Positions 5,200 to 17,545 of a stretch of 64,000 nucleotides of DNA are shown one piece after another. The notes under the pieces were generated by a model. The model saw only the letters and a list, made by a program, of their open reading frames with translations, had not been told where the DNA came from and searched no databases. The position numbers were made by a program, and so were the translations under genes. The stretch comes from Halorubrum salinarum (lineage in GTDB: Archaea > Halobacteriota > Halobacteria > Halobacteriales > Haloferacaceae): the NCBI RefSeq assembly GCF_013267195.1, contig NZ_CP053941.1, positions 1,240,001 to 1,304,000 on the forward strand, written 5' to 3'. Position 1 is the first letter of the stretch. Every line of letters starts with the position of its first letter.

Positions 5200-6093
5200 A
5201 TGGACGCGTCGGGCAGCGGGGTCGTTGATCGCCTCCGCCAACCGGAGTACACCGGCGAGAATCGCTGTACCCCCTGTACCGCCGTCAACGTCACGATCGG
5301 CGTCGCGCTCGGCGCGGCGGTCGCCGTCGCCGTCGATCCCGTGGTCGGCGCGGCCGCGACGGGGCTCTCGCTCGCGGCGGTCTGGCTGCGCGGCTACCTC
5401 GTCCCGGGCACGCCCGAGCTCACGAAGCGCTACCTCCCGGAGTCGGTGCTCCGGCTGTTCGGCAAGGCGCCGCCGGCGGCCGGGATGGAATCGGGGGCAT
5501 CGGCCGCGATCGGGACGCCGGCGAACGAGGCCGACCCGTCGGGCGAGTCGGCCGAGGGCGTCGCCGTCGACCCGCAGTCGTACCTGCTCGCCGCGGACGC
5601 GCTCGTCGAGACCGACGACGGGAGCGACCTGACGTACGCGCCGTGGTTCGCGTCCGCGTGGCGGAGCGAACTCGAAACCGCCCGGGAGACGGCCGACGGT
5701 CCGGCGGTGGCGCGGCTCGCCGACGTGCCCCCCGACGACGAGCCGAGGCTGTCGGTCGAGGAGCGCGGAAACGCGGTGGTCGCCGCCGTCGACGGCGAGC
5801 GGGTCGGCCACTGGGTGTCGCGGCCGGCGTTCCTCGCGGACGCCGCCGCCGACCGCGTGCTTCGCGCGAGCGACGACGAATGGACCGACCTCCCGCAGGC
5901 GGCGCGCAGCGAGGTGCTCGGTGGGCTCCGGCTGTTCGTCGAGGAGTGTCCGGCTTGCGGGGCCGAGGTGACGCTTAGCGAGGAGGTCGTCGCCTCCTGC
6001 TGTACCGCTCGGGACGTGGTCGTCGGGCGCTGTGACGGGTGCGAAGCGCGGGTCTTCGAGCTGGAGCCCGCCGCGCTCGACGGAGTCGAGTGA
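5200..6093 (+). CDS. haloarchaeal membrane-associated zinc-ribbon protein, copy 1
   Basis: 297 aa, function unknown. The N-terminus has VDRLRQPEYTGENRC with CTPC, then a hydrophobic stretch (about residues 27-67) that could form two membrane helices ending in WLRGYLVPGTPELTKRYLPE. The middle is acidic. The C-terminus carries CPAC, CC and CDGC cysteine groups (about residues 249-285), a likely zinc ribbon. The 6976 gene is a clear paralogue with the same block order. Each copy is followed on the opposite strand by a winged-helix membrane protein, so a functional pair is inferred. Confidence 0.8.
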   Translation: MDASGSGVVDRLRQPEYTGENRCTPCTAVNVTIGVALGAAVAVAVDPVVGAAATGLSLAAVWLRGYLVPGTPELTKRYLPESVLRLFGKAPPAAGMESGASAAIGTPANEADPSGESAEGVAVDPQSYLLAADALVETDDGSDLTYAPWFASAWRSELETARETADGPAVARLADVPPDDEPRLSVEERGNAVVAAVDGERVGHWVSRPAFLADAAADRVLRASDDEWTDLPQAARSEVLGGLRLFVEECPACGAEVTLSEEVVASCCTARDVVVGRCDGCEARVFELEPAALDGVE

Positions 6094-6121: not shown

Positions 6122-6700
6122 CTACCCCAGTCGATTCCGCTTCGTCGACAATCGATGGAGCAGTCCGGACACGCCGAATATCCCGGCGAAAAGGACCGCG
6201 TACGCGTATCCGGAGACCGCGTCGAACGGAACCGTACCGGCCCACGCCGCGGCGGCCAGCAGTCCGCACACGACGGCGAGTCCGACGTAATACTCGCTCC
6301 AGAGGATGTCGTTTTCGGAGACGACTTCCAGGTACATCTCCAGCTGTCGGCTGTCTTCGGTGAGCGACACGAGCCCACGGTCGGCCTCGTAATCGATGAA
6401 GCCGCTGTCGGAAAGCTTCGGCAGGTGCGACTGATGGAGCGCGGTGTACACGCGCTTGCGCTGTTTGTACGTGACCTCGTTGATCCCGACGTCGTTCTCC
6501 CACGCCGCCAGCTGTTCCGCGATGTCGCGGACCCGCGCCTCCGAGCCGTTCCGCTTCAGGTACTTGATCACGTTCCGCCGCCGCGCGTTACTCAGCGCGG
6601 TGAACACCTCGTCGCGCGAGGGCCCGGCGTCGTCCTCGGCGCGTGGGCCGCCCTCACCGTCGGCGAGCGATACCTCCGGCCCCGTGGGTTGTGGTGTCAT
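6122..6700 (-). CDS. winged-helix membrane regulator (DUF7344-like), copy 1
   Basis: 192 aa. A winged helix-turn-helix (about residues 28-110) starts with DEVFTALSNARRRNVIKYL and ends with YTALHQSHLPKLSDSGFIDYE, the wHTH pattern common in haloarchaeal DUF7344 proteins. Two hydrophobic segments follow (about residues 135-155 and 162-180). This suggests a membrane-bound DNA-binding regulator. It is convergent with the copy-1 zinc-ribbon gene (28-nt gap) and its 5' side faces the AT-rich region 6701-6975. The protein at 7943 has the same architecture. Regulation of the neighbouring gene is inferred from arrangement only. Confidence 0.8.
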   Translation of the reverse strand: MTPQPTGPEVSLADGEGGPRAEDDAGPSRDEVFTALSNARRRNVIKYLKRNGSEARVRDIAEQLAAWENDVGINEVTYKQRKRVYTALHQSHLPKLSDSGFIDYEADRGLVSLTEDSRQLEMYLEVVSENDILWSEYYVGLAVVCGLLAAAAWAGTVPFDAVSGYAYAVLFAGIFGVSGLLHRLSTKRNRLG

Positions 6701-6975
6701 AGCATATTCAATTACTTGACGACCACATCAACGTGAGACGACTTATCATTTTCGCTTAACAAACTTCTGTCAGATAGCAATCTGATAGATCACAGAAATC
6801 GTCTCTTACAGACCCTCAAAATACCGCTAAGACTGATTAGTAAAATAATAATTCATTCAACCTCTTTTCTACACCCAATAATGTATCCTTTCTGTAACAT
6901 ACAATTCGAGAAATCGAGGTGCGACGGCGCGGTAGGCGGCGCATACATAGGTCGGTTCGGCGCCGTTCAGTGTGT
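6701..6975. other. AT-rich divergent intergenic region with a dyad
   Basis: This 275-bp gap is far more A/T-rich than its surroundings. It contains the perfect dyad TCAGAT-AGCA-ATCTGA at 6770-6785 and several TATA-like blocks serving the divergent genes at 6700 and 6976. No ORF is apparent. It may be a regulatory hub, or the trace of a duplication or insertion junction. Confidence 0.5.
6944..6951 (+). promoter_or_regulatory. TATA-like box of the 6976 gene
   Basis: CATACATA is centred 28 nt before the ATG at 6976. It supports that ATG over the longer in-frame extension, which would begin upstream of the promoter. Confidence 0.55.
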
Positions 6976-7851
6976 ATGAACGCGTCACGCACCGCGCTGT
7001 CGGCCAGACTCGGACGACCCGCCCGGACCGCCGTCGACCGCCTCCGGCAGCCCGAGTACACCGGCGAGAACCGTTGCCTGCCGTGTACGGTCGTCAACAT
7101 CGGGATCGCCGCGGTCGGCGCGGCGGCGGTGGGCGCGGTCGGTGCCCCGCTTCTCGGCGCGGCCGGGTTCGGACTCTCGCTCGCGGCGATCTGGCTGCGG
7201 GGCTACCTCGTCCCGGGGACGCCCGAGCTCACGAAGCGCTACCTCCCCGAGCGGGTCCTCGCGCTGTTCGGCAAGGCGCCCAACGGGGTGGGGCGCGGGA
7301 AGCCTCGGGCGGGCGATGTCGATCCGGAGGCGTACCTCCTCGACGCCGGCGTCCTCGTCGAGACGCCGGGGGGCGACGACTTCGCGTTCGCGCCCGACTT
7401 CGCCGCGGCGTGGCGGGCGGCGGTCGACGCCGACGCCGAGGGGGCGACCGACGACGACCTCGACGCGCTCGCGTCGCTCACCGGGGTCGACCGCGACGAG
7501 CTGGCGATCGACTGGTACGAGGGCGTCGGCTTCGCGTACGCGGGCGACGAGAAGATCGGCCACTGGGAGTCGCGCGCGGCGTTCCGGGCGGACGCCGCGG
7601 CCGACCGCGTGCTGACGGCGACCCGCGACGACTGGGCCGACATGCCGCTCGCGGACCAGAGCACCGTCCTCGGGGCCCTCCGGCTGTTCGTTGAGGAATG
7701 CCCCTCCTGCGCCGGGGACGTGGCGCTCGAAGAGCGGGTCGTCGAGTCCTGCTGTTCCAGCTACGATGTCGTCGCCGGGCGGTGCGCGGGCTGTGACGCG
7801 CGGCTGTTCGAGCTTCGGCTGCCGCCGTCGCTCGCGGCCGCGAGCGAGTAG
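6976..7851 (+). CDS. haloarchaeal membrane-associated zinc-ribbon protein, copy 2
   Basis: 291 aa, paralogue of the 5200 gene. Shared blocks are VDRLRQPEYTGENRC-x-PCT-x-VN near residue 20, the GLSLAA-x-WLRGYLVPGTPE segment, LFGKAP, the GHWESRAAF region and the C-terminal CPSC, CC, CAGC ribbon. Start chosen at the ATG matching the promoter at 6944-6951. The middle region differs most between copies, suggesting an old duplication that has since diverged. Function unknown; a membrane-tethered metal-binding or sensor role is one possibility. Confidence 0.8.
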   Translation: MNASRTALSARLGRPARTAVDRLRQPEYTGENRCLPCTVVNIGIAAVGAAAVGAVGAPLLGAAGFGLSLAAIWLRGYLVPGTPELTKRYLPERVLALFGKAPNGVGRGKPRAGDVDPEAYLLDAGVLVETPGGDDFAFAPDFAAAWRAAVDADAEGATDDDLDALASLTGVDRDELAIDWYEGVGFAYAGDEKIGHWESRAAFRADAAADRVLTATRDDWADMPLADQSTVLGALRLFVEECPSCAGDVALEERVVESCCSSYDVVAGRCAGCDARLFELRLPPSLAAASE

Positions 7852-7942: not shown

Positions 7943-8473
7943 TCACCGCGGCCGTAGCTGTCGCAGCACCGAGAAGCGGTTGACCCACAGCTGGACGGCG
8001 CTCGCGGCGGCGAAGGCGCCGAGCGCGAGGCTGGTCCAGAGGACCGGGTCGACGGCCGACACGAGCGGGGCGTCGAGGAGCGCGGCGAGCACGACGAGCA
8101 GCGACGCCACCGCGAGCGCGCGGTAGATCTCCGACCACGTCGCGCCGCCGGGCGCGAGGATCTCCGTGTAGAGCCGGACGTCTCGCGCGCGTCGCGAGAG
8201 CTCGATGGTCTGTGAGTCCCGGTCGTACGTGATGACGCCCGCGTCCGCCAGCTTCGGGAGGTGCGTCTGGACGAGCGACGTGTACACGCTCTCGCGACAG
8301 CGCTTCGGCGGCGGGCTCTCGCCGGTCTCGCGGCCGGCGACGAGCGTCGACAGTTCGTTGACCGAGACGGGCCCGCCGACGGACCTGAGCTGTTCGATCG
8401 CGCGCCGTCGGCGCTCGTTCGCGAGGATGGCGTACACCTGTTCGGCCGGAAGCACGTCGTTTCGGAGTTTCAT
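7943..8473 (-). CDS. winged-helix membrane regulator (DUF7344-like), copy 2
   Basis: 176 aa. The N-terminal winged helix contains EQVYAILANERRRRAIEQL and SVYTSLVQTHLPKLADAGVITYD, aligned block for block with the 6122 protein. Two hydrophobic helices follow (about residues 117-135 and 142-163). It is convergent with the copy-2 zinc-ribbon gene and divergent from the TasA-like cluster at 8866, so it is a candidate regulator of either. A CATACATATA promoter block lies at 8541-8550 on this strand, giving a leader of about 45 nt. Confidence 0.8.
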   Translation of the reverse strand: MKLRNDVLPAEQVYAILANERRRRAIEQLRSVGGPVSVNELSTLVAGRETGESPPPKRCRESVYTSLVQTHLPKLADAGVITYDRDSQTIELSRRARDVRLYTEILAPGGATWSEIYRALAVASLLVVLAALLDAPLVSAVDPVLWTSLALGAFAAASAVQLWVNRFSVLRQLRPR

Positions 8474-8865: not shown

Positions 8866-10320
8866 ATGAGCCAAGACACAAACGACAAAATCGGACTCTC
8901 GCGGCGCAAAGTCCTCGCCGGCCTCGGTGCCGTCGGCGTGGCCTCCGCGGGCGCTGGACTGGGAACCACCGCGTACTTCAACGACACCGAGTCGTTCGAG
9001 GGCAACACGCTCACCGCGGGCGAGCTGGACCTCAAGCTGGACTACAAGTCGACGTACCTCGGCGGTCCCGGGCGCCTCGACGACGTTATCGACATGGGCT
9101 ACCCGGACGCCGAGGACCTCGGCGAGGGACGCTACCTGCTCGGGCAGGCGCCCAGCCCCGCGGACATGCAGGCGTGGGAAGACCTCGTGATGGAGGACGA
9201 CTTCGACTTCTGTTCGCCCGAGGCGGACCAGTACCTCGTCAACGGCAGCGGGATCCCGGTGTTCACGCTCAGCGACGTGAAGCCCGGCGACTCTGGCGAA
9301 GTGACCATCAGCATCCACATCTGTGACAACCCTGCGTTCCTCTACCTCGCGGGCGAGCTGACGGAGAACAACGAGAACGGTCAGAGCGAGCCCGAGATGG
9401 AAGACGAGGGCGAGGACACCGACGGCGTCGGCGAGCTCGCCGACGCCATCGAGGTCTGCGTCTGGTACGACGAGGACTGCGACAACGTGTACGAGCCCAC
9501 GGGCACGGGCCAGCAGCAGGAACTGGAGGTCGCTCTGGTGAGCGACGTCTCCGGTTCGATGGGCGGCGCACCGCTCTCCGCGCTGAAGACGGCCGCGACC
9601 AGCTTCGTCGGCAACCTCTCGTCGCCCGACGAGGCCGCGGCGATCTCGTTCAACTCCGGCGCGACGACCGACCAGGAGCTGACGACGAACTACCAGCTCG
9701 TCCAGAACGCGATCAACAACTACAGCGCGGGCGGCGGCACCTCGATCGCCGCCGGCATCGTCGAGGGCGAAGACGAGCTCCTCAACGGCACCAACGCCAC
9801 GCCGGGCGCGTCGAAGGTGATGATCCTGCTGAGCGACGGCCAGTCCGACAGCGCCGCCGCGATCAGCGCCGCGGACGACGCCGAGAACAACGGGATCCGG
9901 ATCTTCACTATCGCGCTCGGGAACGCCGACACCAGTCTGTTGGAGAGCGTCGCCAGCTCCCCCGACGACGCGTTCGTCGCGCCCGATCCGGCCGACCTCG
10001 ACACCGTCTACGCCGAGATCGCGCAGATCGTCCTCGCGGGCGAACAGAAGATCATCGAGGGCACGATGGCGGAGGTCTTCGACGCGCTCGCCGAGGGCGT
10101 GGCGCTCGACGGCGACCGCCAGGAGGAGGGCCGCCAGCCGTACCCCGGCGCGACCACCCAGTGTATCGGCTTCGAGTGGACGCTCCCGGCGGAGGTCGAA
10201 AACGAGATCCAGACCGACTCGGTCATGTTCGACATCGGCCTCTACGCCGAGCAGTCGCGCCACAACGACAACCCCCAGGTGACGTTCAACGGCACGGAGG
10301 CGAACAGCACCAGCGTGTAA
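8866..10320 (+). CDS. TasA/camelysin-like secreted protein with inserted VWA domain
   Basis: 484 aa. The N-terminus has twin arginines (13-14), a hydrophobic core and then GTTAYFNDTESFEGNTLTAG, the hallmark of SipW-type signal peptides on TasA/camelysin fibre proteins. Blocks LSDVKPGDSGEVTISIHICDNPAFLYLAGELTENNENG and the late ENEIQTDSVMFDIGLYAEQSRHND are shared with the next two genes. A VWA domain occupies about residues 219-393, with MIDAS residues DVSGS (227-231), GGTS (290-293) and LSDG. A GGGGGAG Shine-Dalgarno-like run lies five nt before the ATG. Probable extracellular adhesive fibre subunit or tip; processing by the 15658 peptidase is inferred. Confidence 0.8.
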   Translation: MSQDTNDKIGLSRRKVLAGLGAVGVASAGAGLGTTAYFNDTESFEGNTLTAGELDLKLDYKSTYLGGPGRLDDVIDMGYPDAEDLGEGRYLLGQAPSPADMQAWEDLVMEDDFDFCSPEADQYLVNGSGIPVFTLSDVKPGDSGEVTISIHICDNPAFLYLAGELTENNENGQSEPEMEDEGEDTDGVGELADAIEVCVWYDEDCDNVYEPTGTGQQQELEVALVSDVSGSMGGAPLSALKTAATSFVGNLSSPDEAAAISFNSGATTDQELTTNYQLVQNAINNYSAGGGTSIAAGIVEGEDELLNGTNATPGASKVMILLSDGQSDSAAAISAADDAENNGIRIFTIALGNADTSLLESVASSPDDAFVAPDPADLDTVYAEIAQIVLAGEQKIIEGTMAEVFDALAEGVALDGDRQEEGRQPYPGATTQCIGFEWTLPAEVENEIQTDSVMFDIGLYAEQSRHNDNPQVTFNGTEANSTSV

Positions 10321-10392
10321 GCGGCGAAACAACGCTGTCCTCCGGACGACGAGACACGTCCGGTCCCGGTTCGGCGCCTTCGGGCGGCCGAC

Positions 10393-10441
10393 GCGGCGGT
10401 TCGCGACCGCCGCCGGGAGTTCCCTTCGGGGATGATACACA
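10393..10441 (+). promoter_or_regulatory. leader hairpins before the second TasA-like gene
   Basis: An 8-bp stem GCGGCGGT/ACCGCCGC (10393-10413) is followed by TCCC-TTCG-GGGA (10421-10432), a UUCG-tetraloop hairpin ending 9 nt before the ATG. The same arrangement with the same 9-nt spacing precedes the third paralogue. Confidence 0.5.
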
Positions 10442-11770
10442 ATGAACGACGACACTATCGGACTATCGCGGCGCAAGATGCTGGTCGGTCTCGGAGCGGT
10501 GGGCGTAGCCTCCGCCGGCGCGGGCCTCGGCACCACGGCGTATTTCAACGACACGGAGACGTTCGAGAACAACACGCTGACGGCGGGTTCGCTCGACCTG
10601 TTCGTTCACGTCGACTACTCCGAGGACCAGGGCAGCTACGCGCAGTACTCGACGCCCCCGGGGAGCTTCATCAACGGTAACGTCGTAGGACAGCTCGAAG
10701 ACGGCGAAGTCGTCACGCAGGAGGGAGAGGGCCTGAGCATCCAGGTCTCCGACCTGAAGCCCGGCGACTCCGGCGAGGGCGAGTTCTGCTTCTCGATCGT
10801 CGACAACCCCGCGTACATGTGGATGTGCGGCGAGCTGACCGCGAACGACGAGAACGGGATGACGGAGCCTGAGATGGACGACGACGAGACTTCCGGTGGA
10901 GACCTCGCTGACGCGATGGAGGTCACCGTCTCGTACTGTACGTCCGACGGCGAGGTCGGCGACGAGATCGTCTCCGGGTCGCTGGCGGAGGTCATGGACG
11001 CGCTCATTGAGGGCGTGCCCCTGTCCGGTGACGGTGACGCGAGCGCGGCGGTCGCAGACCGCCCCGCGTTCGAGGGCGTCACCGAGCCGTTCGTCGACGG
11101 AGCACCGAACGTCGCGGAGCAGTGCGTCTGCTTCGAGTGGGTCGTCCCCACCAGCGTCGAAAACGAGATCCAGACGGACTCGGTCATGTTCGACTTCGAG
11201 TTCTACGCCGTCCAGTCGCGGCACAACGACGGGACCCACAACCCCTGCGTCGAGAGCGTCGAGGGCGAGGGCTTCCCCGAGCTCGAGGACAGCGTCTGGC
11301 ACGCCCGCGGTATCTACGGTAACGGCGGCGGCGCGGCGAACCGCGAACTCGACATCCGGCTCCCCGACGACACGCCCGTCCACAGCGGGAACGAGAACGT
11401 CGCGTGGCCGAACGGCCAGCCCGTCCCCTTCGAACTCACCATCGACGGCGGCGACGCGAAGTGGACCGTCGACGGCTCCGAGGTGACCGTCTCGCCCGCG
11501 CCGCTCCCGACCAGCGACACGGTCGTGGTGATGGCGAAGGCGTCGAGCGCCGACTCCACCATCGAGGTCAACGACATCGCGTTCAACGGCACTTCGCCCA
11601 CGGGCGCCGACTCCGTCTCCGCCGACGGTAACGTCGGCGAGCAGCAGAAGGTGAGCCTGAGCACCGTCGCCTTCGGCGAGGGCGACACCATCACCGGCAC
11701 CGTCACCATGTCGTGGCCCGCCGGGTCGCCCCCGAACCGCGAGGGGCTGGGCTTCCGTATCGACGTGTAA
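10442..11770 (+). CDS. TasA/camelysin-like secreted protein with C-terminal extra domain
   Basis: 442 aa. It has the same twin-arginine plus TTAYFNDTETFENNTLTAG signal region as its neighbours and the same fibre-domain blocks (VSDLKPGDSGEGEFCFSI, ENEIQTDSVMFDFEFYAVQSRHND). Where the other two large paralogues carry a VWA domain, this one has only about 13 residues (near 167-178), so it shows the uninterrupted fold. Residues ~275-442 form an added beta-rich domain (WPNGQPVPFELTIDGG, TVVVMAKASS) resembling the 'choice-of-anchor W' family. Stem-loops precede the gene. A fibre major or spacer subunit is a reasonable guess. Confidence 0.75.
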   Translation: MNDDTIGLSRRKMLVGLGAVGVASAGAGLGTTAYFNDTETFENNTLTAGSLDLFVHVDYSEDQGSYAQYSTPPGSFINGNVVGQLEDGEVVTQEGEGLSIQVSDLKPGDSGEGEFCFSIVDNPAYMWMCGELTANDENGMTEPEMDDDETSGGDLADAMEVTVSYCTSDGEVGDEIVSGSLAEVMDALIEGVPLSGDGDASAAVADRPAFEGVTEPFVDGAPNVAEQCVCFEWVVPTSVENEIQTDSVMFDFEFYAVQSRHNDGTHNPCVESVEGEGFPELEDSVWHARGIYGNGGGAANRELDIRLPDDTPVHSGNENVAWPNGQPVPFELTIDGGDAKWTVDGSEVTVSPAPLPTSDTVVVMAKASSADSTIEVNDIAFNGTSPTGADSVSADGNVGEQQKVSLSTVAFGEGDTITGTVTMSWPAGSPPNREGLGFRIDV

Positions 11771-11821
11771 CGCCGCGACAGCGGCGCTTCTCCCACTCCG
11801 GACCCGCGCGGGCGGCCGGGA

Positions 11822-11868
11822 CGACGGTTCGACTCCGTCGGTGGGACTCCCTTCGGGGAATCACAATC
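11822..11868 (+). promoter_or_regulatory. leader hairpins before the third TasA-like gene
   Basis: The stem CGACGG/CCGTCG (11822-11840) is followed by TCCC-TTCG-GGGA at 11848-11859, nine nt before the ATG at 11869. It mirrors the leader of the 10442 gene and could set processing or translation within the transcript. Confidence 0.5.
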
Positions 11869-13578
11869 ATGAACGACAAGGAAAACATCGACACGATCGG
11901 ACTCTCGCGGCGCACCGTCCTGGCCGGCCTCGGCGCGGTCGGGATCGCCTCCGCGGGCGCGGGCCTCGGCACCACCGCGTACTTCAACGACACCGAGTCG
12001 TTCGAGGGCAACCAGCTGACCGCCGGGCAGCTCGACCTGCTCGTCGACTGGCAACAGACCTACGACTTCGGCGAGGGCCACCAGTTCGTCAGCGCGCACC
12101 CGGACCACGACGGCGACGGCGAGCAGTCGATCGAGATCGACGGCACGGTCTACAAGTACAGCGACTTCCCGGACGAGGAGGACGAGGACAGCAACGGCGC
12201 GAACATCCCGGTGCTGGACTGCGAGACCATCCCGCCGCTCTCGGAGGCGGACTTCGGCACCGACCCCGTCACGGGCGAGGAGATGGACACGCTGGTCCGG
12301 CTCACCGACGTGAAGCCCGGCGACTCCGGCGAGATCACCTTCTCGCTCCACCTCTGTGACAACCCCGGCTACATCTGGATGCAGGCGGGCAACATCTCCG
12401 AGTCCGGCGGCGCCGGCACCGAGCCGGAGCTCATCGTCGACCCGGACAACATGGGCGACCTCGGCGACGCGATCAACGCGCGGCTCTGGTACGACGAGGA
12501 CTGCGACAACGTCTACGACGCCGCGCGGCCGGTCGACATCATGCTGACGCTCGACTTCTCGGGCTCGATGCTGTACAACCAGTACGGCGGCGTGGTCAGC
12601 AGCGACCCGATCACGATCAATGGGACGACCTACAACGAGACGACGAAGATCGACCTCGTCGAGCTCGGCACCCGGCAGTTCATCGACTTCCTCCAGAACG
12701 CGGGCGCTGACGCGCAGGTGGGCGTGGCGTACTTCGACGGCGAAGGCAGCAACGACACCCAGCCCCGGACCGGCATCCTCCAGCCCCTGACCAGCAACCT
12801 CTCGGACGTCGACAACGCGCTGTCGAACCTCCGGCAGAAGCTGGCGGACGTGGTGACCGGCGGCGAGCCCTCGTCGCCCGGCGACGGCGACGGCAACCCC
12901 GACCCGTTCTCGAACGCGAGCGGCATCGCGACGGGCACCTACATCGGTGAGGGCGTCGACGACGCGCAGGGCGAGCTCGACGCGAACGGCCGCGCGAGCG
13001 CCGACAAGCGCAACATCGTCCTCTCGGACGGCCAGTCGTTCAACGGGACCGGCAGCACCCAGTTCTCCTCGCCCATCGACGCGGCCAACGACGCCCGCGC
13101 GGCGTCGCCGAGCCCCGCGACCGAGCTGTACACGATCAACGTGAACGGCAGCGCCAGCACGCTCCTCGCGATGGCCGGCCCCGCCGGCGGCGCGGGCGGC
13201 GACCCGGTGTTCTTCAACGACCTCGACGACCCGCTGAACATCCCGACGGTGTTCGGCAACCTCGCGGCGCAGGCCACGCAGGAGAAGGTCATCATGGACG
13301 ACACCCTCGCGAACGTCCTCGCCGCGCTGGCGGACGGGAACGGCGTCCCGCTCGACGGCAACCGCTCGACGCTGTACGACGAGCTCAACGACGCCCCCGA
13401 CGACGCGGACCGCGACGCGTTCCGCGGCGACGGCGTGATGCACTGCGTCGCGCTCTCGTGGGAGCTCCCCTTCGACGTGGGCAACGAGATCCAGGGCGAC
13501 ACGCTCGGCTTCGACCTGGGCTTCTACACCGAGCAGGAGCGCCACAACGACGGCGCCGGGCCGTCGGCGGCGGCCTGA
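11869..13578 (+). CDS. TasA/camelysin-like secreted protein with inserted VWA domain (second copy)
   Basis: 569 aa. The start is the ATG giving MNDKENIDTIGLSRRTVLAG, which aligns with the paralogues; upstream in-frame codons are unrelated. The signal region ends in TTAYFNDTESFEGNQLTAG. Fibre blocks are LTDVKPGDSGEITFSLHLCDNPGYIW and, near the end, GNEIQGDTLGFDLGFYTEQERHND. The VWA insertion spans about residues 222-474 with DFSGS (228-232) and LSDGQSF; it is longer than in the first paralogue. The DxSxS motif predicts divalent-cation binding and an adhesive role. It probably belongs with the two preceding genes in one transcript. Confidence 0.8.
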   Translation: MNDKENIDTIGLSRRTVLAGLGAVGIASAGAGLGTTAYFNDTESFEGNQLTAGQLDLLVDWQQTYDFGEGHQFVSAHPDHDGDGEQSIEIDGTVYKYSDFPDEEDEDSNGANIPVLDCETIPPLSEADFGTDPVTGEEMDTLVRLTDVKPGDSGEITFSLHLCDNPGYIWMQAGNISESGGAGTEPELIVDPDNMGDLGDAINARLWYDEDCDNVYDAARPVDIMLTLDFSGSMLYNQYGGVVSSDPITINGTTYNETTKIDLVELGTRQFIDFLQNAGADAQVGVAYFDGEGSNDTQPRTGILQPLTSNLSDVDNALSNLRQKLADVVTGGEPSSPGDGDGNPDPFSNASGIATGTYIGEGVDDAQGELDANGRASADKRNIVLSDGQSFNGTGSTQFSSPIDAANDARAASPSPATELYTINVNGSASTLLAMAGPAGGAGGDPVFFNDLDDPLNIPTVFGNLAAQATQEKVIMDDTLANVLAALADGNGVPLDGNRSTLYDELNDAPDDADRDAFRGDGVMHCVALSWELPFDVGNEIQGDTLGFDLGFYTEQERHNDGAGPSAAA

Positions 13579-13653
13579 TCCGGCGGTTCGGACCCCGCCG
13601 CGGCGCCGTCGAGCGAGACCGACCGACGGGCGAGCAGATCGAGCGACCGCGGG

Positions 13654-13674
13654 CGGGTACGGTACCCGTACCGT
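13654..13674. promoter_or_regulatory. operator-like palindrome, copy 2
   Basis: CGGGTAC-G-GTACCCG is a perfect 7-1-7 inverted repeat (13654-13668), overlapped by ACGGTAC-CC-GTACCGT (13659-13674). It is 18/20 identical to the site at 8619-8638 and lies about 40 bp upstream of a CATACATACG TATA block. A binding site for a shared dimeric regulator is inferred. Confidence 0.6.
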
Positions 13675-13709
13675 CGGGGTACGGAGCCCCGGCCGCACGG
13701 GTAGGACGC

Positions 13710-13719
13710 GCATACATAC
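13710..13719 (+). promoter_or_regulatory. TATA-like box of the 13782-17545 operon
   Basis: GCATACATAC in GC-rich DNA, about 65 nt before the ATG at 13782. It sits just downstream of the palindrome and implies a leader of roughly 40 nt. Confidence 0.5.
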
Positions 13720-13781
13720 GAGCACAGTGAGAGTAGGGAGGGTATCGACGACACGGCCGTTCGGAGCCGCGACGACAGATA

Positions 13782-14564
13782 ATGACACAGAAGGAATCAG
13801 GACTTACGCGGCGGGAGGCACTCGCGGGCGCCGGAGCCGTCGGCTTCGCCGCCCTCGGGGCCGCCTCCGGACGGCCGACGGGAACGGACAGCTGGGGTGA
13901 GTACACGGACTACACCTACGCGCAGACCGACCGGCCGTGGGACCTGCTCGTCGGCTGGCGGCGCACGGAGAACGGGACGGTCGTCGATTCGAGCCCGACC
14001 GGCGCCGAAGACGACGTCGAGGCGGCCGGAATCCGTCTCGTCGACGTCGACAACGCCCTCCCGCACGACACCGGGACCGCGAGCGTGGGGCTCCGCTTAG
14101 AGGACCCCGCGGGCGCGGCGCCCGACGGCGTCCGGGTGTGGCTGAAGATAGCCCCCGGGCTCGACGGCGCGGACGCCGCGAGCCGCGCGCTCGCCGAGCG
14201 CATCCGGCTGGAGGTCCGGTACGACACTGGCCTCCTCGGCGTCGGCGCGTGCGCGGGCGCCGAGAGCGACTTCGCCGGCTACGGCGAGCTGATCGCCGCC
14301 GGCACGCTCGCGGAACTCAGCGCCGACCCGGTGGCGACGGGGATCGAACTCGATCCCACGCTGCTCGGGAACGGCTGCCTCACGACCGAGGAGCGCCGCT
14401 GTCTGACCTTCACCTGGGAGTTCGACGGCGAGGGCGGCAACGCCGGACAGGGCGGCGCCGTCGACTTCGACGTGCGGTTCGCCGCCGACGACTGCTCGGC
14501 CGAGGGGAACCCCTTCGTCATGAGCGACGTGAGCGACGGCGACGCCACCGAGGTGGGACAATGA
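13782..14564 (+). CDS. small TasA-related secreted protein, atypical signal
   Basis: 260 aa. The N-terminus LTRREALAGAGAVGFAALGAASG is a Tat-type signal, but the TxAYFND motif of its neighbours is missing. The body has AERIRLEVRYDTG, GTLAEL and LTFTWEFDGEGG...AVDFDVRFAADDC, matching the late beta-strand order of the TasA-like proteins. The stop overlaps the next start as ATGA, so the two are translationally coupled. It may be a minor subunit, cap or chaperone of the fibre. It heads the operon driven by the promoter at 13710. Confidence 0.65.
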   Translation: MTQKESGLTRREALAGAGAVGFAALGAASGRPTGTDSWGEYTDYTYAQTDRPWDLLVGWRRTENGTVVDSSPTGAEDDVEAAGIRLVDVDNALPHDTGTASVGLRLEDPAGAAPDGVRVWLKIAPGLDGADAASRALAERIRLEVRYDTGLLGVGACAGAESDFAGYGELIAAGTLAELSADPVATGIELDPTLLGNGCLTTEERRCLTFTWEFDGEGGNAGQGGAVDFDVRFAADDCSAEGNPFVMSDVSDGDATEVGQ

Positions 14565-15658
14565 CCCCCGGAGGCGACGGTGGACGGCGCCCGAGCGGGC
14601 TGAGCCGCCGCCGGCTGCTCGCCGGGATCGGCGGCGTCGGCGCGGTCGGGATGGCGAGCGGGATCGGCACGGGCGCGTACCTCTCGGACCGCGAGACGTT
14701 CCCGAGCAACGTCTTCGGCGCCGGCGAGGTCGGGCTGACGGTCGACGGCGACCCCACGAGCGGGACCGTCACCGTCGGGCCGCTCGCGGTCGACCGGACG
14801 ACGTTCGACGACCGCCCCGCCCCCGAGCGGTTCGAGGTGGGGGCGTCGGCGAACCCCGTGCGGGTGTGGCTCGCGACGGAGTGTCCGGACGGCGACCGGC
14901 TCGGGAACGCCTTGGAGGTCGAGATCGTCGTCGACGGCGCGTCGGTGACGGGGGGCTACCGCCCTTTCGCGGCGGTCGAGCGCGACCTCGCGACCGGGGT
15001 GCGGATCGACGACGGCTGCCTCGACCCGGACGGCGGCCCGATCGTCGTCGAGGTCGCCCCGTACCTCCCGGCGGACTCGCCCGACGTGGGCGGGGAGGCG
15101 ACGGACCTGACCTTCCGGCTCTACGCCGAGCAGTGCCGCCACGTCTCGGAGGAGCAGGCGAACGCGCCGGGGGCGAACCCCTTCGCGGGCGTCGTCTGCG
15201 AGCCGACGTGCGTCCCCTGCGAGGACGAGAACGGCGTCAAGATCGGATCGCTCACGCTCCGGTACCTCGGTGACGACCCGGCGACCGTCGTCGTCGTCGC
15301 CACGGGCGGCGGCCGCGGCGGCGTGGGCGCGGGCGGGACGACGGTGTTCGACGCCGAGGTGGCGCCGAACGAGACCTTCGTGGTCGACGGGAGCGCCTCC
15401 CCGACCAACGGCGACCCGAACTGGATCGGCCCGAACATCCGCCTCGACGACGGCAGCGGAGCCGGCGGCGACAACGGAGGCGGAAGCAACGGGAACGGGA
15501 ACGGCGGCAACGGTGGCGGTCAGGACCGCACGGGCGTCGACATCCACACGAGCTGTTCGGTTCCGCTCCGGGTCGGCGACGTCTACGGCGGGCTGTACGA
15601 GATCGTCGCGGCCGCGACCACGGACGGCGAGCCGCTGTGCGGCTCGGAGGCGAACTGA
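14561..15658 (+). CDS. TasA/camelysin-like secreted protein, Gly/Asn-rich linker
   Basis: 365 aa. The signal region is LSRRRLLAGIGGVGAVG, then GTGAYLSDRETFPSNVFGAGEVGL, a SipW-type motif. The core domain (about residues 60-200) ends with DLTFRLYAEQCRH, as in the neighbours. Cysteine-rich CEPTCVPCEDENG follows, then a beta domain, a Gly/Asn linker near residues 308-324 and a C-terminal domain with two further cysteines. The ATGA overlap with the gene before and TGATG overlap with the peptidase after make this one operon. The anchor or minor-subunit role is a guess. Confidence 0.7.
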   Translation: MTPGGDGGRRPSGLSRRRLLAGIGGVGAVGMASGIGTGAYLSDRETFPSNVFGAGEVGLTVDGDPTSGTVTVGPLAVDRTTFDDRPAPERFEVGASANPVRVWLATECPDGDRLGNALEVEIVVDGASVTGGYRPFAAVERDLATGVRIDDGCLDPDGGPIVVEVAPYLPADSPDVGGEATDLTFRLYAEQCRHVSEEQANAPGANPFAGVVCEPTCVPCEDENGVKIGSLTLRYLGDDPATVVVVATGGGRGGVGAGGTTVFDAEVAPNETFVVDGSASPTNGDPNWIGPNIRLDDGSGAGGDNGGGSNGNGNGGNGGGQDRTGVDIHTSCSVPLRVGDVYGGLYEIVAAATTDGEPLCGSEAN

Positions 15659-16674
15659 TGACCAAACTACTCACATCACCACGGACGAAGCGCGCGGCGA
15701 ACGTACTCGGGATCGTCCTGCTGATCGCGGTCGTCGCGCCGTTCGCGGTGTTCGCGGTCCCCGAGGTCGTCGGCGCCGACGAGAGCTTCGTGGTGCTCAC
15801 GGCGAGCATGACGCCCGCCATCGCGCCGGGCGACGTGGTCATCGTCGCCGAGCGCGACCCGACCGCGATCGCCGAGGGCGACGTGATCACGTTCGTCCGC
15901 GGCACGAGCGACGTGCCGGTGACGCATCGGGTGATCGGCGTGAGCGGCGAGGGAGCGGCGCTCGCGTTCGAGACGATGGGCGACGCCAACGAGGGGCCGG
16001 ATCCGGGGCTCGTCCCGGCCGGGAACCTCGTCGGCGTGGTGACGCTGACGATCCCGTGGATCGGCTACGTGATCCAGTTCGCGGGCACGCGCGCCGGGTT
16101 CGTCGCGCTGGTCATGCTCCCCTTCGGCCTGCTCGCGGCCACCGAGGTTTGGTCGATCGTCCGCGACCGCGGCGAGTCCGGAGGACAGGCCCCGGCGACC
16201 GTCGAGCCGGTCGAGTCGACCGACGGAGCGGGCGCCGAGGTAGCGGCCGCGACCGACGCCGAGCCCGCCTCGACGGCCGACGCCGCGGGCGGGTCCGGCG
16301 GCGTCTCGGTGGACGCGGTCGGGGGCGCGGCGGCGGTGCTGGCCGCGGTCACCCCGTACGCGGTCTACGTCGCGTTCGAGCTGCGCACCGCCGTCGCCAT
16401 CGCGGTGGCGGTCGCGGCCGCGACGCTCCTGCTGGGCGCGCTCGCGGCGTGGATCCCGGCGAGCGGCGTCCTCGACCGGAGCGGTCCGAGCGCGGCGGAG
16501 ACCGACGCGCCGGCCGCGGCCGCCGACGGCGGCGTGTCCGAGACCGACGGGGGCGCTGACGCGCCGGCGACCGACGCCGGCGAGCGCGAGGTCGACGCGG
16601 TCGACCACCCGGATCGGGAGATTCCAGCGACGACGCCAGCGCCGGCGGACGGCGCCGCGGAGGCGGACAGATGA
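15658..16674 (+). CDS. SipW-like signal peptidase I (S26 family)
   Basis: 338 aa integral membrane protein. After an N-terminal membrane helix (about residues 17-36) come the catalytic serine in LTASMTPAI (Ser50), the histidine in VTHRVIGV (His90) and the conserved GDAN (108-111). His in place of the bacterial lysine marks the archaeal/ER/SipW type. A second membrane segment lies near residue 135-165; the C-terminus adds two more hydrophobic segments and an acidic tail that ordinary signal peptidases lack. Its start overlaps the stop of a probable substrate gene, so a dedicated role in maturing this cluster's proteins is likely. Confidence 0.85.
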   Translation: MTKLLTSPRTKRAANVLGIVLLIAVVAPFAVFAVPEVVGADESFVVLTASMTPAIAPGDVVIVAERDPTAIAEGDVITFVRGTSDVPVTHRVIGVSGEGAALAFETMGDANEGPDPGLVPAGNLVGVVTLTIPWIGYVIQFAGTRAGFVALVMLPFGLLAATEVWSIVRDRGESGGQAPATVEPVESTDGAGAEVAAATDAEPASTADAAGGSGGVSVDAVGGAAAVLAAVTPYAVYVAFELRTAVAIAVAVAAATLLLGALAAWIPASGVLDRSGPSAAETDAPAAAADGGVSETDGGADAPATDAGEREVDAVDHPDREIPATTPAPADGAAEADR

Positions 16675-17384
16675 CCGCGAACCGCGGGCTCGTCGCGCTC
16701 GTCGCCCTCGCCGTGTTGGTGTGGGGCGTCGCGTTCGCCGGGGGGGCAACGATCGCGGTCCTCACCGCGAACGCCACCGTGACGACGACGTTCGAGACGC
16801 CGGACGAACTCCGGCAGATAGACGAGTCCGCCGGCGAGGGGTTCGCCGTCGCGGCCGTCGCGAACGGAACGACCGAGGTGAACGGAACCGCGCCGGCGGC
16901 GACCGCCGCCGGACCGGGCGAGAACGTCTCGGCGCCCGCAGGCGGCAACGCCTCGGCGCCTCCCGACGGTAACGCCTCGGCACCGACCGACGGCAACGTC
17001 TCGGATCCCGCCGGTGAGAACGTCTCGGCGCCCGCAGACGGCAACGTCTCGGCACCGACCGAGGGCAACACGTCGAGCCCGAGCGAAACGGCACCGGCCG
17101 CCGACGGCAACGCCTCGGCGCCCGAGGGTGACGGCGCTTCGGCGCCCGCCGACGGCAATACATCGAGCCCGACCGAAACGGCACCGACCGCGGGCGGTAA
17201 CGCCCCGGCGCCCGCGGACGGCGGCGAGTCGAGCCCGACCGAAACGGGCACGGAACCGTCGGAGACCGGCGAACCGTCGACGAACGAGTCGAGCGGCGCG
17301 GAGAACTCGACGGCGGTCTCGGCCCCGGCGAACGCGTTCGACGCCGATCTGCGGCCCGCGTCCGACCGGCCGAACGGCACGTGA
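16671..17384 (+). CDS. membrane-anchored, N-glycosequon-rich repetitive protein
   Basis: 237 aa. One N-terminal hydrophobic segment (about residues 7-31) is followed by a short ordered stretch and then a low-complexity region of degenerate GN-x-SAP units. About fifteen N-x-S/T sequons are present, so heavy N-glycosylation outside the cell is likely. The start overlaps the signal peptidase stop (ATGA). No enzymatic domain is visible. It could be a mucin-like stalk linking fibres to the surface; that is inference from composition and context. Confidence 0.65.
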   Translation: MTANRGLVALVALAVLVWGVAFAGGATIAVLTANATVTTTFETPDELRQIDESAGEGFAVAAVANGTTEVNGTAPAATAAGPGENVSAPAGGNASAPPDGNASAPTDGNVSDPAGENVSAPADGNVSAPTEGNTSSPSETAPAADGNASAPEGDGASAPADGNTSSPTETAPTAGGNAPAPADGGESSPTETGTEPSETGEPSTNESSGAENSTAVSAPANAFDADLRPASDRPNGT

Positions 17385-17386
17385 TC

Positions 17387-17545
17387 ATGGACGCGCCGAT
17401 CGGCTCGCAGCAGTCCGGAGAGGGGCGCGGGAGGAGTCCGTGCGCGCGGCGGTCGGCCCTCGGGATCAAGCTCACCGCGCTGCTGCTCTTCGTCGCGCTG
17501 CTGCTGCTCGCGTTCCTCGTCGCCATGATCCGCGGCCTCGGGTGA
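17387..17545 (+). CDS. 52-aa single-pass membrane protein
   Basis: A short ORF starts 2 nt after the preceding stop. It encodes a polar, arginine-rich N-terminus (MDAPIGSQQSGEGRGR...) and one strong transmembrane helix LTALLLFVALLLLAFLVAM near the C-terminus. The tight spacing and clear membrane segment suggest a real last gene of the TasA-like operon rather than chance. It might be a small membrane partner of the peptidase or fibre assembly. No homologue is recognised. Confidence 0.5.
   Translation: MDAPIGSQQSGEGRGRSPCARRSALGIKLTALLLFVALLLLAFLVAMIRGLG

Follow-up and report, generated by a model that had tools for sequence, protein, structure and literature searches.

The 64,000 nt window analysed here (Halorubrum salinarum, contig NZ_CP053941.1, positions 1,240,001 to 1,304,000) contains eight co-directional plus-strand genes between 8866 and 17545, those from 13782 to 17384 each overlapping the next end to end, and every ORF named in an earlier note on this DNA is present (8866, 10442, 11869, 13782, 14561, 15658, 16671 and 17387-17545). 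The first five genes encode P0001 (8866-10320), P0002 (10442-11770), P0003 (11869-13578), P0004 (13782-14564) and P0005 (14561-15658), all with a Tat or Tat-type signal ahead of a predicted TasA-like core. They are followed by an S26 signal peptidase, P0006 (15658-16674), by P0007 (16671-17384) and by a 52-residue protein with a single membrane span (17387-17545), which is found in the same place behind P0007 in at least 13 Halorubrum loci. The gene order is kept in Halorubrum and more loosely in Halobellus, Halobacterium, Haloglomus, Halospeciosus, Halolamina, Halomicroarcula, Saliphagus and Halorientalis, and the gene set is common to several haloarchaeal genera.

The operon is preceded, between 5200 and 8473, by two DUF7344 proteins encoded on the minus strand and two paralogous membrane proteins with Cys motifs. 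The first membrane protein (5200-6093, plus strand) carries the motifs NRCxPC and CxxC, matched no Pfam family and has homologues near TasA-like clusters at many loci; its paralogue (6973-7851, plus strand), whose similarity was judged by eye, is also linked to such loci. The two DUF7344 winged-helix proteins score 101 bits (6122-6700, hydrophobic C-terminus, linked in many loci) and 94 bits (7943-8473, divergent from the first TasA-like gene) against PF24035. The DUF7344 pair and the Cys-motif paralogues are conserved beside TasA-like clusters at many haloarchaeal loci. DUF7344 is a common haloarchaeal domain and the argument for its linkage is therefore one of position: by our own count, a divergent DUF7344 gene directly precedes the first TasA-like gene in 15/19 loci that do not belong to the main Halorubrum operon type, the exceptions being L057, where it is on the far side, L069 and L070, which have single TasA-like genes and no DUF7344 gene, and L065, a contig of 5.2 kb. 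The DUF7344 proteins are likely to be regulators of the operon, and since they are conserved with the locus the unit is larger than the earlier note had drawn it; two of that note's supposed subunits are hybrids that bear vWA domains.

SipW-type signals had been attributed to four of the proteins, and all four reach the 19-bit cut-off of TIGR04088, the model of the SipW-dependent-type signal peptide: P0001 with 33.1 bits, P0002 with 32.8, P0003 with 31.0 and P0005 exactly at the cut-off (19.0 bits in the protein search, 22.9 in the genome search). P0004 and P0007 did not match this model. The clustering of these signals is not due to chance, as the four are the only matches in the 3.34 Mb genome and all sit here; Haloferax volcanii, a control in the genome search, also scores. 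A twin-arginine motif, which the earlier note overlooked, is found in 110/112 of the SipW-type motif matches across the loci, a few of these not being cluster members, and suggests that the substrates are exported by Tat, probably in a folded state. A folded subunit exported in this way would need to open for strand exchange, which would matter for assembly. In B. subtilis TasA is exported via Sec. The SipW-type signal class is also present in other archaeal families, and in one with genomes of ~2 Mb (L079-L081) strong signals occur in short proteins arranged in tandem arrays.

The peptidase that had been recognised in the same gene string by Ser50 and His90 scores 100 bits against TIGR02228 (cut-off 51.85), which places P0006 with the archaeal/ER-type signal peptidase I enzymes (S26B). 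It scores 90 bits against the Bacillus SipW equivalog NF046067, below the cut-off of 190, and is thus classed by sequence as an archaeal SPase I, not as that equivalog, although it is predicted to work like SipW. Ser50, His90, Asp109 and Asp115 are invariant in 18/18 homologues, and P0006 carries extra C-terminal membrane segments. No other S26 peptidase of the genome passes the cut-off for archaeal SPase I; there are three weaker S26-like matches, and the two that were compared differ in the surroundings of the catalytic His. Across 148 genomes of the family, strong S26 genes (TIGR02228 of at least 81 bits, a threshold set after a gap in the scores was seen) are found in 84/85 SipW-positive and 0/63 SipW-negative genomes, the best score among the latter being 75 bits and the lone SipW-positive genome without such a gene being 70% complete. 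Furthermore, a strong peptidase gene lies within 10 kb of 127/150 listed SipW-type loci, whereas for a single gene the expectation is ~0.6% per locus. Linkage and co-occurrence thus support P0006 as the dedicated SipW-type peptidase for the cluster substrates. Two near-full-length S26 matches of 73-75 bits (G077:C1:452109-452525 and G101:C1:1678436-1678855) occur in genomes without SipW-type signals, and are possibly orphan SipW-type peptidases or remnants of decayed clusters.

The TasA-like fold was followed up by structure prediction. The AlphaFold models of mature P0002 (pLDDT 79) and of P0004 (pLDDT 75) both have the cryo-EM TasA fibre 8aur as their best PDB fold match, each with probability 1.00 and with E of 5.6e-5 and 1.7e-3 respectively, the TM-scores being moderate (0.41-0.42) and the rmsd large. 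No match was found for P0002 among PDB sequences. The cores of P0002, P0004 and P0005, compared through orthologues from named loci, are homologous (hhalign 97.9-99.7%), with 99.5% (E 2.6e-23) for P0004 against the P0002 core and 99.7% for P0005, which joins the fold by profile homology. P0004 is thus related to the other four in its body, as had been proposed, and the motif is absent from it. P0001 and P0003 share the P0002 core, divided by an inserted domain, and there is real support, from models and profiles, for a single TasA-like fold in P0001 to P0005. The cores conserve a K-P-G-D box, and in TasA relatives the most conserved site is of the same kind as this position (PMC10151520); the strand motif and the proline box are kept in nearly all copies. 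Residues 1-19 of mature P0002 are unplaced and of low confidence in the single-chain model, hence donor-strand exchange is not predicted by such models; the unplaced N-terminus would fit a strand that awaits its neighbour, although low model confidence alone would look identical.

The earlier note also overlooked the domains inserted in P0001 (Pfam VWA, 2.8e-23, residues ~214-395) and, with a weak VWA_2 match and a DxSxS motif, in P0003 (residues ~219-470), where the vWA or vWA-like insert splits two core parts that are continuous in P0002. A long insert is present in 53/93 SipW-type cores from the loci, and the DxSxS metal-site motif is found in 40/53 cores with an insert versus 1/40 without; uninterrupted, plain subunits are present in most clusters. 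The C-termini also differ, P0002 ending in a choice-of-anchor W domain (NF041928, 82 bits) and P0005 in a DUF7467 tail (PF24269, 2.6e-7). The cores of P0002 orthologues are ~75-85% identical, yet many matches end at residue 271. Orthologues of the 10442-11770 gene (L046-L050, L055 and L056) swap the C-terminal domain, so that the tail resembles an exchangeable cassette.

The gene behind the peptidase encodes a glycoprotein-like partner, as had been suggested. P0007 has a Sec-type leader, then the short strand segment AVLTANATVTTTFET, then a low-complexity stalk with 15 N-x-S/T glycosylation sequons (shuffled mean 3.4, maximum 9), and no Pfam domain, and hence no Ig domain, was found in it. A P0007-like gene lies behind the peptidase in many genera, reading ALLSDREDVSVEVSV, ATLSDTETVSVTVSA, ALLSDEESVSLGFSA and similar before a Ser/Thr/Asn/Asp-rich stalk; in Halobellus a P0005-like gene intervenes. 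The proteins of other genera carry A-L-L-S-D-x-E, the motif being degenerate in P0007, and the leader region of P0007 is linked weakly to SipW-type signals (hhalign 73%). TapA of B. subtilis begins with AFHDI, nearly like TasA, and initiates TasA filaments by donating this strand (PMC10151520). Because the Ig domain is absent and the motif degenerate, P0007 is likened to TapA in its possible function, as a candidate strand donor or anchor, and is not filed as TapA. The claim of a complete system with an assembly gene was an overreach, as the peptidase is a processing enzyme and the candidate polymerisation factor is the gene behind it.

Taken together we consider it rather probable that this haloarchaeal operon encodes surface filaments of the TasA (camelysin) type. 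In the proposal of a fibre system the fold, the dedicated peptidase and the gene set have held, and it is fibre assembly that we infer. A possible reading, to which we give less credence, is that the TasA-fold proteins are cut by the peptidase without polymerising and serve as surface or S-layer-associated adhesins, for which the SipW route would provide export and maturation only. The large variable inserts and exchangeable C-terminal domains (vWA heads, choice-of-anchor W, DUF7467 tails) would suit such proteins, as would the opening required of Tat-folded subunits and the single-chain model in which strand exchange is not predicted, but it speaks against this reading that TasA is matched best in its fibre form, that nearly all copies keep both the strand motif and the proline box, and that most clusters hold plain uninterrupted subunits.

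Two gaps of the operon contain an element that resembles a tRNA T-arm. Before P0002 (10364-10432, plus strand, loop TTCGCGA) and P0003 (11791-11859, plus strand, loop TTCGACT) a hairpin that resembles a T-arm, with a stem of 5-6 bp and the loop TTCGANN, is followed by a 3' strand such as GTGGG or CCGGG and by a C-rich hairpin ahead of the start codon, and in the gap before P0003 a UUCG hairpin accompanies the element; the copy at 11791-11859 folds as a closed three-way junction, and a T-arm with a 7-nt loop is combined with an acceptor-like stem as in tRNA-like elements. Taken singly, the elements have folding energies that do not stand out significantly in DNA so rich in GC (z -1.5 and -0.6), and the case for them therefore rests on comparison. 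GGTTCG was found upstream of 67/110 SipW-type genes with enough upstream DNA, and in 48/67 copies the loop lies 40-49 nt before the start codon. The elements are always in the sense orientation in the loci analysed and are often absent before the first gene of the operon. At least 5/6 Watson-Crick T-stem pairs are formed in 61/67 unselected copies and a matching 5' partner strand is found in 44/59 elements (permuted mean 26, maximum 36), figures which are both weakened by relatedness and are nevertheless fairer than T-stem covariation, inflated by the selection of those sequences for a perfect 5-bp stem. In the gaps between tandem TasA-like genes (L043-L077) the stem shows compensatory changes, and the 5' partner strand tracks its 3' partner.

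A strict version of the pattern has 110 copies in 46/148 genomes and its reverse has none; 95/110 have a listed SipW-type gene or a strong peptidase gene no more than 12 kb away, and the pattern is present in 44/85 SipW-positive genomes versus 2/63 others, counts which are lower bounds because the window's own copies escape so strict a pattern. Of the copies left over, several stand before genes for DUF1102 secreted proteins or before additional SipW-type genes. The same element stands before DUF1102 (PF06510) secreted-protein genes far from SipW clusters (L082, L083, L084 and L088), and may thus characterise a broader group of tandem genes for secreted proteins. At the locus ARAGORN called no tRNA, and Rfam at E<=1 returned only chance miRNA models and no family for the gap element; a longest-complement test gave no separation from shuffled upstream DNA. 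The UUCG tetraloop alone, considered as the shared signal, accounts for 21/110 upstream regions, and the T-arm element was adopted in its place.

The RNase P and tRNase Z of H. volcanii cleave RNAs where these carry tRNA-like elements, or t-elements (PMC4946936), and it is for this reason that RNA processing is the leading idea for the gap elements. The likeness extends to an acceptor-like stem beside a T-arm with a 7-nt TTCGANN loop, the difference being that the elements here lie between protein genes of one operon and are not called by ARAGORN or Rfam. They would probably determine how individual subunit messages are processed, stabilised or translated. It seems unlikely that they act instead as DNA, in the form of recombination sites through which subunit genes are spread or amplified, much as integrases use the T-arm ends of tRNA genes. 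Such sites would accord with the differing number of subunit genes among genomes, with the position of the elements in the gaps of tandem arrays and their frequent absence before the first gene, and with the copies before DUF1102 genes elsewhere, but not readily with the constant sense orientation and mostly fixed distance from the start codon, with a 5' partner that tracks the 3' partner beyond the permuted maximum, or with the three-way junction of the window copy. Finally, it is highly improbable that the proteins are camelysin-type secreted metallopeptidases (Pfam M73), as their weak Peptidase_M73 matches span residues ~20-60 only, that is the leader and first strand, with no full-length family match and no catalytic domain indicated.

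The preferred filament operon shares with the tapA-sipW-tasA operon of B. subtilis and the sipW-tasA/calY/capP genes of B. cereus a co-encoded ER-type signal peptidase, several substrates with a mature start of the A-F/Y-x-N/D-D type, the TasA fold by fold search and a stalk-like accessory gene. It differs from them in its Tat-type leaders, the vWA domains nested in subunits, the larger number of subunits, an accessory gene of different build with no homologue of the Ig-domain TapA or of CapP, and its archaeal candidate regulators and gap elements. The archaeal bundling pili of Pyrobaculum calidifontis are, as cited in PMC9674648 and PMC10151520, filaments of TasA-related AbpA subunits joined by strand donation; AbpA was absent among the 50 fold matches listed for each of the P0002 and P0004 models. 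By score the four substrates are members of NCBIfam TIGR04088, which defines a signal class only and is silent on the fold, the inserts, P0004, P0007, the regulators and the RNA. P0006 belongs with Sec11a and Sec11b of Haloferax volcanii to the S26B family with Ser/His/Asp (PMC4343526), and is a separate paralogue. In the open-access literature, to which any claim that the system is undescribed is confined, we found no paper that pairs SipW with Haloferax or that names DUF1102.

A possible course of assembly would begin with export of the subunits by Tat, probably folded to judge from the twin-arginine signals. The co-encoded SipW/Sec11-type peptidase would cut just before A-Y-F-N-D and free an N-terminal strand, which, by the example of TasA, would complete the beta-sandwich of the next subunit as the filament grows. 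P0002-type proteins, whose C-terminal domain can be exchanged, would serve as the plain subunits, P0001 and P0003 may provide adhesive heads through their nested vWA domains with a metal-site motif, and P0004, which has the fold without the SipW site, may be a cap or base. P0007, with its short strand on a glycosylated stalk, may begin the filament or anchor it, in the role that TapA has for TasA, the DUF7344 proteins would regulate the operon and the gap elements would tune single subunit messages. The complete combination, in which folded subunits exported by Tat, some of them bearing vWA heads, are cleaved in the SipW manner and then polymerise on an anchor made of a strand and a glycosylated stalk, while recognition of the gap elements by RNase P or tRNase Z yields separately metered subunit messages from one operon, is offered tentatively and as a whole we think it doubtful.

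Archaeal fibres that resemble TasA and signals of the SipW type had been described before, and what surprises most in this locus are the vWA domains set inside subunit cores, the probable export by Tat, the gene for a strand on a stalk and the gap elements with their likeness to a T-arm. Such a vWA domain within the core of a subunit provides a concrete adhesin hypothesis, and the T-arm-like gap elements would be a testable new kind of operon-internal signal. If the proposal is true, Tat-exported subunits would already be folded when strand exchange begins, in which they would differ from TasA, a Sec substrate, and from chaperone-usher pili, and haloarchaea, a group with good genetics that includes Haloferax volcanii, would possess TasA-type surface or matrix fibres that link archaeal and bacterial biofilm scaffolds.
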